NCBI GenBank assembly: GCA_002840405.1
Contig: PHAR01000001.1
Location: forward strand, 262,384-326,383
Direction of reading: 5' to 3'
Length of the DNA: 64,000 nucleotides
Source of the DNA: Deltaproteobacteria bacterium HGW-Deltaproteobacteria-8
GTDB taxonomy: Bacteria > Desulfobacterota > Desulfovibrionia > Desulfovibrionales > Desulfovibrionaceae
Shown: positions 4,675 to 44,933 of the stretch, piece by piece
Position numbering within the stretch: position 1 is the stretch's first letter
Layout of the letters: each line of letters starts with the position of its first letter
Translations under genes and position numbers: made by a program
Notes under the pieces: model-generated
Seen by the model: the letters and a program-made list of their open reading frames with translations, nothing else
What the model was told of the DNA's origin: nothing
Databases searched by the model: none

Positions 4675-5407
4675 TTTAGAGACCGGCACTGTTGCCTGGC
4701 CGCAATTTCCACCGCGCGACCAGGAAAACATCGTCCGTCACTACGCCCCGAAGATCCGCATCCTTGCGCTCCGGATGAAGAACAAGCTGCCACAAAGCGT
4801 GGAGCTTGGCGAACTCATCAGCGCAGGGAGCATCGGTCTGCTTGACGCTTTGGGAAAGTTCCGCCCGGAGCTGGGCATCAAGTTCGACACCTACGCGGAG
4901 AACCGCATCAAGGGCGCCATGCTCGACGAGCTGCGCCGCATGGACTGGTTCTCTCGCGGCATGCGCCAGAAGGTGAAGATGCTCGACGAGGCCATGCGCC
5001 AGATCGAGCATGAAACAGGCTCCACGGCAACGCAGGAGCAGTTGAGCACAAAGACCGGTTTGTCCTCGCGCGAGGTGCAACAGGGTCTGGAGGCCTTGCA
5101 AAACCAGTTGTGTGTCAGCCTCGACGCGTTTCAGGAGAATTTCGTCGGCACCCGCGAGTCCTTGTCCGAGAACGAGCCATACCAGTCCACTGCATTCCAA
5201 GAAATGGTTGACAAGATTGCAGGCCTCATAGAAGAGTTGACTCCTAGAGAGAAGCTTGTCATATCACTCTACTACGGTGAAGAATTGAACATGAAGGAGA
5301 CCGCCCAGGTCATGGACATCACCGAGGGCCGCGTCTCTCAGTTGCATTCACAGGCTTTGGCCAAGCTCCGCGACAACTTCCGGCGGCGCTACGAAAACGC
5401 AGATTGA
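4616..5407 (+). CDS. fliA: FliA, flagellar sigma factor (sigma-28)
   Basis: 263 residues. Region 2 is recognisable (ELGIKFDTYAENRIKGAML, near residues 84-102), as is region 4 with its helix-turn-helix (LTPREKLVISLYYGEELNMK to SQLHSQALAKLR). FliA/WhiG-type sigma factors direct RNA polymerase to late flagellar and chemotaxis promoters. The start overlaps the flhG end by 59 bases; residues before WRDLETG are poorly conserved-looking, so a slightly later start is possible. A perfect match to the classical FliA promoter is present elsewhere in this window at 42970-42996. Its activity would normally be held by FlgM, which I do not see here. Confidence 0.94.
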   Translation: METLNSSGKSCSSRSSPWRDLETGTVAWPQFPPRDQENIVRHYAPKIRILALRMKNKLPQSVELGELISAGSIGLLDALGKFRPELGIKFDTYAENRIKGAMLDELRRMDWFSRGMRQKVKMLDEAMRQIEHETGSTATQEQLSTKTGLSSREVQQGLEALQNQLCVSLDAFQENFVGTRESLSENEPYQSTAFQEMVDKIAGLIEELTPREKLVISLYYGEELNMKETAQVMDITEGRVSQLHSQALAKLRDNFRRRYENAD

Positions 5408-41349: not shown

Positions 41350-42852
41350 CTACTTCTTGCTCTTCTGGGCCTTGGCCTGGGCCAGCATGTCGCCCAGGTT
41401 GCCCATGCCGCCCGGGGCCGACTTCTCGGCGGGCTTGGCAGCGGCCTTGTAGCCCTTCCAGTCCTCGTTCTCGCGGCCGCCGCCACCCTGGCCCGCGTTT
41501 TCGCGCACCTCAAGGGGGGACAGCGCAATGCGGCGCTCGCCCGCGCGCAGGTCCTCGACCACCAGGGTCACGGAGTCGCCGCGGTTCAGCTTGTCGAACT
41601 GCTTGGGGTCAACAGCCACGGCCATGCGCGACTTGGGCAAAAGCGCGGTGATGCCCGGCTCCAGCGTCACGAAGATGCCGAAGGTCTCGCGCTTCTCCAC
41701 GATGCCGGTGACCTGGGTGCCGGGAGCGTATTTGGCCGCAGCCTCCAGCCAGGGGTCGCCCTCGGCGTCCTTCATGGACAGGGAGATGCGGCGCTTGGCC
41801 AGATCGATCTCTTTCAGCACCACCGAGACCTCGTCGCCCACCTGGACCATCTCGCTCGGCTTGTTCACGCGCTTGGTGTAGCTCATCTCGCTCACGTGGA
41901 TCAGTCCGTCCACGCCGGGCAAAATCTCCACGAACGCGCCGAAGTCGGCCAGGCGCACCACCTTGCCGGTGTGCTTCTCGCCTTCCTTCAGCTTGTCGGC
42001 CACGCCGTCCCAGGGGTCGGACATGGTCTGCTTGCGCGAGAGCGAGATCTTCAGCTGGCCGGGCTTCTTGCCGGGCTCCACGCCAAGGACCTTGACGCGA
42101 ATCTTCTCGCCCATGCTCACGGCCTCGTCGGGCTTGGCGATGCGGGCGTACCCGAGCTCGCTCACGTGGACCATGCCTTCCAGGCCCGGGGCGATCTCGA
42201 CGAAGGCGCCGAAATCGGCCAGACGGACGACAGTTCCTTCAATCTCCTCGCCGGGCTTCATGGCGGCCAAGAACTCTTCGGTGGCGGCCTGGCGCTCGCG
42301 CTCGATGAGCACCCGGCGGGACACCACGATGTTGCGGCCGCGCTCCTCCAGCTTGGTGATGAGGAAGAGGAAGGTCTTGCCCACGTATTCTTCGGGGTTC
42401 TCCACGTAGCGGGCGTCGATCTGGCTCACGGGGCAGAACGCCCTGCGGTTCATGATCTCAACCGAGAAGCCGCCCTTGCAGGTCTCCTTGACGCGGCCGT
42501 CCACAGGCAGCTCGGCGTCCTTGGCGCTCTGGAGCATCTCCAGGCCGCCAGCCCCGGCCAGGGCGCGGGAGAGCACGATCTCGCTGCGGGTCTTGGAGAC
42601 CACGTAGAGGTCGACCGTGTCGCCTTCCTTGAAGGGAAAGTTGCCCTCAGCGTCGAGGAGTTCTTTTTTCTCGGCCACGCCGTCAATCTTGGTGCCGGTG
42701 TCGAAGTACACGCTGTCCGCGCCGATGGTGATAATGCGGGCGGAAATCTTGTCTCCCAGGTTCAGGGGCTCGCCCTGTCCGGCATAGCTGGCCTCAAAAA
42801 GCTCCGCGAAGCTCTGCTCCTGATCCCCGTTGGTCTGCGCCTGGTCGGTCAT
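41350..42852 (-). CDS. S1-domain RNA-binding protein (ribosomal protein S1-like)
   Basis: 500 residues from ATG 42852 (AGGAG 6 bases upstream). About five S1 OB-fold repeats are visible; the third and fourth are nearly identical at their cores (VVRLADFGAFVEI). The C-terminal ~50 residues are Gly/Lys/Ala-rich and probably disordered. S1 proteins recruit mRNA to the 30S subunit. It is shorter than six-domain E. coli S1, so either this is the cell's S1 or a second S1-like protein. Confidence 0.88.
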   Translation of the reverse strand: MTDQAQTNGDQEQSFAELFEASYAGQGEPLNLGDKISARIITIGADSVYFDTGTKIDGVAEKKELLDAEGNFPFKEGDTVDLYVVSKTRSEIVLSRALAGAGGLEMLQSAKDAELPVDGRVKETCKGGFSVEIMNRRAFCPVSQIDARYVENPEEYVGKTFLFLITKLEERGRNIVVSRRVLIERERQAATEEFLAAMKPGEEIEGTVVRLADFGAFVEIAPGLEGMVHVSELGYARIAKPDEAVSMGEKIRVKVLGVEPGKKPGQLKISLSRKQTMSDPWDGVADKLKEGEKHTGKVVRLADFGAFVEILPGVDGLIHVSEMSYTKRVNKPSEMVQVGDEVSVVLKEIDLAKRRISLSMKDAEGDPWLEAAAKYAPGTQVTGIVEKRETFGIFVTLEPGITALLPKSRMAVAVDPKQFDKLNRGDSVTLVVEDLRAGERRIALSPLEVRENAGQGGGGRENEDWKGYKAAAKPAEKSAPGGMGNLGDMLAQAKAQKSKK

Positions 42853-42911
42853 CTGCTGCTCCTGTGCGATTGAACGCAAATATATTGGCGGTACGCATCC
42901 GCCTGGGGCGT

Positions 42912-42939
42912 GTATTATCGAAGGGGCGACACTTGTCAA
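42912..42939 (-). promoter_or_regulatory. Predicted promoter of the S1-domain gene
   Basis: On the minus strand TTGACA (42939-42934), 16 bases, then TAATAC (42917-42912). The start would be roughly 55 bases before the ATG. It is divergent from the sigma-28 promoter at 42970-42996. Confidence 0.55.
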
Positions 42940-42969
42940 ACACAGCCTGCGTGATTTTTGGGCCAGCCC

Positions 42970-42996
42970 TAAAGTTTTTTAAGGATTTGCCGATAA
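42970..42996 (+). promoter_or_regulatory. FliA (sigma-28) promoter, perfect consensus
   Basis: TAAAGTTT (42970-42977), 11 bases (42978-42988), then GCCGATAA (42989-42996). This is identical in all 16 positions and in spacing to the classical FliA consensus. It is followed by AAGGAGG (43028-43034) and the ATG at 43044. Confidence 0.9.
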
Positions 42997-43043
42997 GAAA
43001 CGAGAAAGCGTCATCCATGATTTCGGTAAGGAGGTGGTCAAAT

Positions 43044-43331
43044 ATGCCCATTGAACTCATCGGTGGATTCTCCGCCTTTGACCAGCAGCAGTTTACCGGA
43101 ACGGACCCCTACGCCGCGAAACAGGCCACGCTGGCCCAGTCCAGCCAGGAATCCGCACCCATGGACAAACAGACATTCGGGGCCGCTGTGGTCTCAAAAA
43201 CTCTCGACTACATGAATTCGGGCCAAGGCCATGACAATGGCATGGCCCAGAGCTACGACTTCCAGAAAAGCGTCCTGGGCGGCCATGCGGACGCCATAGC
43301 CAGCGGGGCGCTTGCAAACATCAAGGTGTGA
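43044..43331 (+). CDS. Small FliA-controlled protein, probably motility-related
   Basis: 95 residues, no signal peptide or membrane segment. AAGGAGG lies 9 bases before the ATG. The N-terminal half is Gln/Ser/Ala-rich; a helix FGAAVVSKTLDYMNSG is followed by a Gly/His-containing region. I do not recognise it with certainty; short putative motility proteins of the YjfB type are loosely similar in having a V-x-K-x-L-D-x-M helix. The perfect sigma-28 promoter in front and the terminator behind show a monocistronic late flagellar gene. FlgM is not obviously matched. Confidence 0.85.
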   Translation: MPIELIGGFSAFDQQQFTGTDPYAAKQATLAQSSQESAPMDKQTFGAAVVSKTLDYMNSGQGHDNGMAQSYDFQKSVLGGHADAIASGALANIKV

Positions 43332-43365
43332 CAGCCGAAACCACCCGAGATGACGCCAGAGCATG

Positions 43366-43395
43366 AAAACCCCGCCCCTCACAAGGCGGGGTTTT
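43366..43395 (+). terminator. Terminator of the sigma-28-controlled gene
   Basis: AAAACCCCGCC (43366-43376) pairs with GGCGGGGTTTT (43385-43395), an 11-bp stem with the T-run as part of its 3' arm. Confidence 0.88.
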
Positions 43396-43514
43396 CCATT
43401 TGCAGCGCGGCCCCGCGCGGTATTGTCCCGGTCTGGTCCGACTTGCCAATGCTGCCAAGAACGGCTAAAGGCGCTGTGCAACTGCCGCCACAATAGCGAG
43501 GGGAACAAAAGCAC

Positions 43515-44933
43515 GTGACCAGGGACAAGCACAAGGTACTCATAGCCAACCGGGGCGAAATCGCCGTACGCATCATGCAGGCCTGCGCCGATCTGGGCGT
43601 CGGCTTCGTCTGCGTATATACGAAGGAAGACGCCGATTCCGGCCATGTTTCCCTGGCCCGGAGCCTGGGTGGGGAGGAGGCGCTGGTGCGCATCCACAAC
43701 TACCTGGACGCCGGCGACATCCTCTCTGCGGCCGATGCCAAGAACGCCACGGCCATCCACCCCGGCTACGGCTTCTTCTCGGAGAACTACCGCTTCGCCC
43801 GGCGCGTGGTGGAGCGCTCCCGGCCCATGCTGTTCATCGGGCCCTCCTGGCGCGTCATCCGCGACCTGGGCGACAAGATCAACACCAAGCGCCTGGCCCG
43901 AAGCCTGGGCGTGCCCACGGTTCCGGGCTCCGACCGCGCCATCTACGACGAGATGGAGGCCGAGACCATCGGCCAGCAGCTCTTCAACTACCAGGAGAAG
44001 CAGGGCGTCACCCGGCCCATGGTCCTGGTGAAGGCCTCGGCTGGCGGCGGCGGCATGGGCATCGACGAAGTGCACAGCATGAACCACTTCCGCCAGACGT
44101 ACCGGCGCATCCGCAACTACTCACAGCGCCAGTTCAACGACCCCGGCGTGCTCATCGAGCAGCGCATCTTCAACTACAACCATCTGGAAGTGCAGATCGT
44201 CTCCGGGCGCGGGGGGCTTGACCCCATCCACTTCGGCACGCGCAACTGCTCCGTGCAGAGCCCCGGCCGCCAGAAGCGCATCGAGACCGCGCCAGGCTTC
44301 GTGCCCGAGACCTTGACCTACGGCTTCGACGCCCGCAAGGTCATGGACGACATCGTGCGCCACTCCCTTTCCATCGCGCGTGAAATCAACTACGACAACG
44401 TAGGGACCTGGGAATGGATCGTGACGCCCAAGGGCGAGCCCTTCCTCATGGAAGTGAACACGCGCATCCAGGTGGAGAACGGCGTTTCCGCCGCCATCTC
44501 GCGCATCCGGGGCAAGGGCGACGTGAACCTCGTGCGCGAGCAGATCCGCCTGGGTCTGGGCGAGGAGCAGGGCTACACCCAGAGCGACGTGAGCTTTGAG
44601 GGCGTGGGCATCGAGTACCGCATCATCGCCGAAGACACCTTCAATCGCTTCGCCCCCTGGACCGGCCGCATCGAGACCATCGCCTGGCCGGACGAGCCCT
44701 GGCTCAAGCTGCATACCCACGTACCCCAGGATCAGGCCTACCAGATCCCCACGGAGTACGACCCCAACCTGGCCCTGGCCATCATCTGGGGCAAGGACCT
44801 GGACGAGGCCAAGGCCCGTGGCCTGGCCTTTTTGGACGCATTCAAGCTGTCCGGGGCCGACGCCCAGGGCGTGGAACTCAAGAGCAACATCGCCTTCCTG
44901 CGCGAGAAAACCAAGGACCTGCTGGAGTTCTAA
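43515..44933 (+). CDS. Biotin carboxylase subunit of acetyl-CoA carboxylase (divergent)
   Basis: 472 residues from GTG 43515, preceded by GCGAGGGGAA. It has the ATP-grasp layout of biotin carboxylase: IANRGEIAVRIMQAC at the N-terminus, VLVKASAGGGGMGI (about residue 173), catalytic MEVNTRIQVEN (about residue 311) and EYRIIAED (about residue 366). The usual HPVTE after RIQVE reads NGVSA, a family-level divergence. It carboxylates biotin on a carrier protein; no BCCP is encoded here. It is 20 bases before the carboxyltransferase gene, which indicates acetyl-CoA carboxylase rather than pyruvate carboxylase. Confidence 0.88.
   Translation: MTRDKHKVLIANRGEIAVRIMQACADLGVGFVCVYTKEDADSGHVSLARSLGGEEALVRIHNYLDAGDILSAADAKNATAIHPGYGFFSENYRFARRVVERSRPMLFIGPSWRVIRDLGDKINTKRLARSLGVPTVPGSDRAIYDEMEAETIGQQLFNYQEKQGVTRPMVLVKASAGGGGMGIDEVHSMNHFRQTYRRIRNYSQRQFNDPGVLIEQRIFNYNHLEVQIVSGRGGLDPIHFGTRNCSVQSPGRQKRIETAPGFVPETLTYGFDARKVMDDIVRHSLSIAREINYDNVGTWEWIVTPKGEPFLMEVNTRIQVENGVSAAISRIRGKGDVNLVREQIRLGLGEEQGYTQSDVSFEGVGIEYRIIAEDTFNRFAPWTGRIETIAWPDEPWLKLHTHVPQDQAYQIPTEYDPNLALAIIWGKDLDEAKARGLAFLDAFKLSGADAQGVELKSNIAFLREKTKDLLEF

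Follow-up and report, generated by a model that had tools for sequence, protein, structure and literature searches.

Among the described proteins closest to the one treated here, FlgM has about 95–100 residues, is the product of a late gene and is partly disordered. In the excerpted text of PMC11607428, YjfB (PF14070) is called 'an uncharacterized small protein' and placed in flagellar superoperons with sigma-28, and an excerpt of PMC4326333 contains a table in which yjfB is given as a hypothetical protein. The connection of YjfB itself to flagella and sigma-28 rests on the former excerpt and on the promoter of a canonical copy (locus L075, 41.9 bits), which has the sigma-28-type sequence TAAAGTTATTTTTTTAAATGCCGATAA upstream.

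We analyzed a stretch of 64,000 nucleotides (the window) from the genome of Deltaproteobacteria bacterium HGW-Deltaproteobacteria-8, in which a sigma-28 (FliA) promoter precedes the gene of a 95-residue protein, here P0001 (Table 1). Like YjfB, P0001 and its relatives are small proteins with a sigma-28-type promoter and a helix around K-[TA]-LD, and the short family members also have the MD-I start and the GxGxxLdv end of YjfB. Unlike YjfB, the family carries the stretch FGAxVVxKTLDYMN, often doubled, a conserved YDFQ.VL helix and a mostly stand-alone gene, and P0001 does not score over the PF14070 cut-off. With FlgM, P0001 shares the size class, the late gene and the partial disorder, but not a sequence match to PF04316. 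A FlxA-like protein (PF14282) of the same genome is encoded behind a one-mismatch sigma-28 site as P0001 is behind an exact one, and FlaG (PF03646) adjoins one P0001 relative, whereas neither PF14282 nor PF03646 matches P0001 or the members of the family alignments A1 and A2 (44 distinct proteins).

Table 1. Features of the P0001 locus and the FliA gene, with positions in the window.
Feature	Position	Strand	Description	Basis
FliA (sigma-28) gene, TIGR02479-matched stretch	4730..5380	+		converted from G000:C8:267113-267763
Sigma-28 (FliA) promoter	42970..42996	+	-35 TAAAGTTT 42970-42977, 11-base spacer, -10 GCCGATAA 42989-42996	pattern search of the window
GCGT leader element	43008..43011	+	close to expected transcript start	
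Extended Shine-Dalgarno sequence	43028..43039	+	AAGGAGGTGGTC	read from sequence
Gene of 95-residue protein P0001	43044..43331	+	ATG 43044, 95 codons, stop TGA 43329-43331	
Conserved helix, codons 45-58	43176..43217	+	FGAAVVSKTLDYMN	alignment; helix 42-58 in low-confidence model
Second predicted helix, codons 66-89	43239..43310	+	conserved SYDFQKSVLG	alignment and weak model
Terminator-like hairpin	43365..43396	+	GAAAACCCCGCC-loop-GGCGGGGTTTTC	fold; missing from terminator scan list

The original prediction, made from the letters of the window, comprised a perfect FliA promoter followed by a Shine-Dalgarno sequence and the 95-residue gene, and all these elements were recovered. The promoter showed no mismatch to the consensus TAAAGTTT-N11-GCCGATAA. 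With spacers of 10–12 bases it was the single exact match in the window (dinucleotide shuffles with any match: 0/100) and also the only one in the whole genome of 3,510,156 bases, where the backwards control gave 0. The Shine-Dalgarno sequence agrees in 11 of its 12 letters with the complement of the 16S 3′-end. A strong terminator had also been claimed: the hairpin behind the gene is indeed stable (12 pairs; −24.3 kcal/mol for the folded 65-base stretch), but its T run lies within the stem and the hairpin is missing from the output of the terminator scan, so that a terminator is likely rather than certain. The proposed presence of FliA in the same window is borne out by a TIGR02479 match of 249.1 bits (cut-off 189.6), about 38 kb from the P0001 gene. 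A search with Rfam over 42850–43550 returned five matches, every one far under its gathering score. By eye, a large frame on the opposite strand upstream of the gene resembles ribosomal protein S1, and a frame downstream of it resembles biotin carboxylase.

Four further sigma-28 sites with one or two mismatches are present in this genome. The gene behind one of them encodes a flagellin (PF00669, 4.1e-38), that behind another a FlxA-like protein and that behind a third a chemoreceptor; these positions support that the consensus is functional in this organism. The fourth site (L121) is followed by the end of its contig. The FlxA-like protein, a low-complexity protein of 296 residues behind a one-mismatch site (L122; G000:C11:72969-72995, minus strand), scores 23.6 bits with PF14282, just below the cut-off of 26.3. 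A three-mismatch site (L126; G000:C2:112364-112390, minus strand) lies before a gene for a 69-residue CxxC-pair protein that matches no Pfam model at E ≤ 0.01.

The product was said to have no recognisable domain, and in fact no Pfam (up to E 10) or NCBIfam model matches P0001. Other family members (A1, A2) gave weak, scattered Pfam matches only, and the NCBIfam search, for which P0001 and the A1 members served as queries, gave for the latter only single-member matches at 0.12 and 0.13. DUF5858 was found with 5 of the 18 A1 members (best 0.0038), failed to recur among the A2 members and was taken as a chance match; the same was assumed for one match to a solved structure at E 0.71. Judged by comparison with locus L040, whose protein is 80% identical to P0001 (A5 alignment), the P0001 gene is real and under purifying selection: among 56 aligned codons, 18 differ synonymously and 1 nonsynonymously, and 17 of the 20 base differences are at third positions. 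About 70 bases 3′ of the family gene in L040, a 188-residue protein is encoded whose start, MSLNISHNMMPMNASRDL, looks by eye like the N-terminus of a flagellin; no Pfam model matches the protein at E ≤ 0.01.

The family motif DKQTFGAAVVSKTLDYMNSG occurs as a single copy (e.g. in L015, L081 and L115) or as a double one (e.g. in L003, L016 and L027) and is followed by the YDFQKSVLG helix and a GALANIKV-like tail. P0001 itself has one complete motif, together with a diverged stretch where its nearest relatives carry the first copy. An AlphaFold2 model built with 33 sequences was poor (mean pLDDT 55.6, pTM 0.21); with low confidence, it places helices at residues 42–58 and 66–89 behind an unstructured N-terminus.

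With the P0001 protein as single query, relatives were detected in 151 of 297 genomes of the order (E ≤ 0.1), and with the family profile in 155 (E ≤ 0.001), belonging to 36 of 55 genera. FliA exceeded its cut-off in 254 of the 297 genomes; the 43 FliA-negative ones were assigned by best E-value, a number that agrees with the tally of the tool. Among the 155 family-bearing genomes, 152 have FliA over the cut-off and the three exceptions are 82–89% complete. Since the genomes share ancestry, which the nominal Fisher values for this co-occurrence ignore, such statistics overstate independence. A scan of titled contigs with a single peptide pattern, which therefore reaches close members only, yielded 35 loci, nearly all titled Desulfovibrionales or unspecifically Proteobacteria or Deltaproteobacteria. 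One of the 35 (L072:4448-4699) is on a contig titled Candidatus Methylomirabilis; its upstream region is AT-rich, its C-terminus differs, and it may reflect transfer or misbinning. Among 198 sampled genomes of the phylum there were 9 matches at E ≤ 0.01, namely the genome of the window, one of its family, five chemoreceptors and, from beyond the order, two clear members of the P0001 family, L159 and L160. A plasmid or phage origin was discarded, as tblastn of P0001 against both collections found nothing.

The promoter is conserved together with the gene. Upstream regions were compared for the fetched loci, not for all 155 family genomes, giving 83 distinct regions. Left out of the promoter counts were L004 (start misplaced; the gene is that of L041), L097 (doubtful), L072 (the Methylomirabilis-labelled assembly), L049 (no frame), L139 (wrong start), duplicates and upstream stretches of under 100 bases. 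At a spacing of 10–12 bases, 50 of the 83 contain at least 12 of the 16 promoter letters (controls: shuffles 1.1%, reversed 0/83) and 25 contain at least 14. The remaining 33 fall under 12 letters. No sigma-28 site was seen for the long Solidesulfovibrio-type copies (L008, L010–L012, L020, L024, L063), the Desulfonatronum type (L006, L009, L014) and the Nitratidesulfovibrio type (L062, L087, L088), and sites are present for short second copies of the Solidesulfovibrio type (L115–L118, L120). With 33 of 83 regions below the threshold, including these site-less groups, sigma-28 control is common in the family, not universal. Upstream of L006 and L009, TTGCCA and (C/T)AGTAT, about 17 bases apart, are common to both by eye, which suggests a switch of their promoter to the housekeeping type.

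A second shared element lies in the leader. GCGT starts 7–14 bases after the -10 element in 35 of 58 leaders, compared with a mean of 2.4 and a maximum of 8 of 58 in shuffles. It often takes the form GCGTTATTT or GCGTTGTCT and lies close to where the mRNA is expected to start. RNAalifold detected no conserved RNA structure in the alignment of the 58 leaders.

Gene neighborhoods were tabulated by mechanical picking of the longest ORFs in GC-rich DNA, so that the tables include spurious frames; by eye, the neighbors of most family members do not look flagellar. In L119, a FlaG gene (PF03646, 1.1e-10) ends 14 bases 5′ of the family member (17 including the stop codon). Taken together, promoter conservation, co-occurrence with FliA and this FlaG neighbor strongly support, by comparison of genomes, the idea of a stand-alone FliA-dependent late flagellar gene, and late, FliA-driven synthesis of P0001 appears well supported.

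A second group of small proteins shows the complementary distribution. Searched with a four-sequence alignment at E ≤ 0.01, a more permissive threshold than the E ≤ 0.001 used for the P0001 family, this YjfB-like set is found in 40 of the 297 genomes, in four genera, with 59–64 residues in the 24 proteins read. FliA is present in all 40 genomes, none of which has a member of the P0001 family, and 62 of the 254 FliA-positive genomes have neither. After 25 of the 40 matches had been fetched and one dropped, 20 of 24 distinct upstream regions matched the promoter in 12 or more of its 16 letters (shuffles 0.2%, reversed 2/24). In L132, chemoreceptor-type genes flank the YjfB-like gene on either side, the downstream frame being cut by the end of the locus and containing a Cache domain; L136 is arranged alike by eye. 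The P0001 family and the YjfB-like set, whose distributions exclude each other, look like alternatives for one job, and the P0001 family is probably a counterpart of YjfB.

Whether P0001 goes further and is a true, very diverged member of YjfB is a question that the original prediction had raised by proposing a profile comparison. The outcome is divided: the PF14070 cut-off is not reached, and profile alignment of the short members gives a suggestive likeness. An alignment of the short members (A2) compared by hhalign with one of YjfB-like sequences (A6) gave p=0.0016 at a probability of 15.9, a score reached by 0 of 100 column shuffles, and comparison with A3 gave p=0.0025 and a probability of 11.9. 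The length class of the short members, their MD-I start, K-[TA]-LD helix and GxGxxLdv end, the exclusive distribution and the sigma-28-type promoter of the canonical copy point in the same direction. Against membership, the probabilities are low (1.5, with p=0.035, for A1 against A3), the comparisons do not align over the same part (an 11-column tail in one, the helix in another), and A3 and A6 share sequences. Among the 18 A1 members PF14070 matched 3, the best at E 0.018, and among the 28 A2 members it matched 2, the best at 0.38; its cut-off of 27 bits was exceeded in none of the 297 genomes. The PF14070 matches L032 and L035–L039 of the order-wide search read as Ser/Met-rich frames; a PF14070 search around genome G355 reached only 2 genomes. 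The YjfB-like set does not reach the PF14070 cut-off either; only small alignments connect it with YjfB, and it owes its name to those containing the canonical L075. Homology of the P0001 family to YjfB is therefore suggestive only, P0001 is not filed under PF14070, and we regard true membership as conceivable, with the balance tilted somewhat against it.

For the function of P0001, we consider it fairly probable that it is a late (class 3) flagellar accessory protein whose helices dock on a partner and which does a YjfB-like job. Once hook and basal body are complete and FlgM has been exported, FliA would transcribe the P0001 gene, and the near-complete Shine-Dalgarno sequence would allow high translation. 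The protein would consist of a disordered N-terminal half and one short amphipathic helix FGAxVVxKTLDYMN (two in many relatives), behind which a further helix leads to a conserved tail. The helices may then serve as a short, repeated docking motif for a partner, itself a multimer of the flagellar or chemotaxis machinery, and the family would fill the role taken by YjfB-like small proteins in those genera of the Desulfovibrionaceae that lack it. We infer expression, timing, partner and docking mode, as well as functional equivalence to YjfB and an effect on swimming.

The main alternative, which we consider rather unlikely, is export: P0001 would be a small late substrate of the flagellar type III channel, either FlgM-like in physique or a minor filament-associated component, and would have its effect in the extracellular space or signal completion. 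Cysteine is nearly absent from the family (2 in 7,234 residues of 82 distinct proteins) and absent from the YjfB-like set (0 in 1,309 residues of 22 proteins), compared with 1.2% in six larger proteins of the window, which are not size-matched to the family. This hints at flagellar export, as do the disordered N-terminus and C-terminal helices of the weak model and the FlaG neighbor in L119, but small cytoplasmic proteins rich in Ser and Gly may be cysteine-poor as well. A search of the open-licence literature found no report on a lack of cysteine in flagellar proteins. Between the two, we favour docking over export.

An improbable variant would make P0001 a new late flagellar regulator of one or two short helices, swapped reciprocally with the YjfB-like proteins. 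In one version it would be exported, free of cysteine, and would report or modify the completion of the filament; in the other it would be a decoy which, by resembling the glycine-hinge helix GxxVVxxTIxxMN of chemoreceptors, tunes receptor arrays. The likeness of GxxVVxxTLxxMN to a chemoreceptor helix comes from the five chemoreceptors of the phylum sample, which had themselves been picked by the family profile, with about 2 false matches expected at E ≤ 0.01 over 198 genomes. The segment matched is presumably the glycine-hinge region. A2 had its best match in the glycine-hinge register in 11 of 15 chemoreceptor frames of the genome of the window, at only −3.3 to 7.9 bits, and only 2 of the 15 frames beat all 200 shuffles; the frame of L124 ends before this region. 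The resemblance was absent from the two L132 frames and from the YjfB-like profile A6; it is weak and may be a convergence of amphipathic helices.

That P0001 is a FlgM-like anti-sigma factor, a lead contained in the original prediction, is very improbable: size, sigma-28 control and partial disorder would fit, but P0001 has no match to PF04316, or to any other Pfam model up to E 10, and a separate FlgM gene (G000:C8:472415-472576, PF04316, 57.9 bits, cut-off 25) is present in the genome. That the promoter is a chance match before an ORF unrelated to motility is very improbable as well: the pattern does cease to discriminate at up to three mismatches (11 genome sites, 7 control sites), but the exact match is unique in the genome and kept with the gene across genera, and the family co-occurs with FliA.

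In the literature on the Desulfovibrio sigma-28 regulon and on fitness, the P0001 gene is unmentioned in titles and abstract openings of the open-licence papers retrieved. As far as can be judged from sequence, its family is a new, widespread, sigma-28-linked family of small proteins which parallels the poorly understood YjfB, and by its complementary distribution to the YjfB-like set it is less isolated than had been assumed. Centered on the Desulfovibrionales and without a Pfam or NCBIfam match, it can be named and annotated in 155 of the 297 searched genomes. Together with the YjfB-like set, it provides a pair of candidates for a single motility function that is missing. P0001 is likely a new motility or chemotaxis factor and probably an overlooked component of swimming in sulfate-reducing bacteria.
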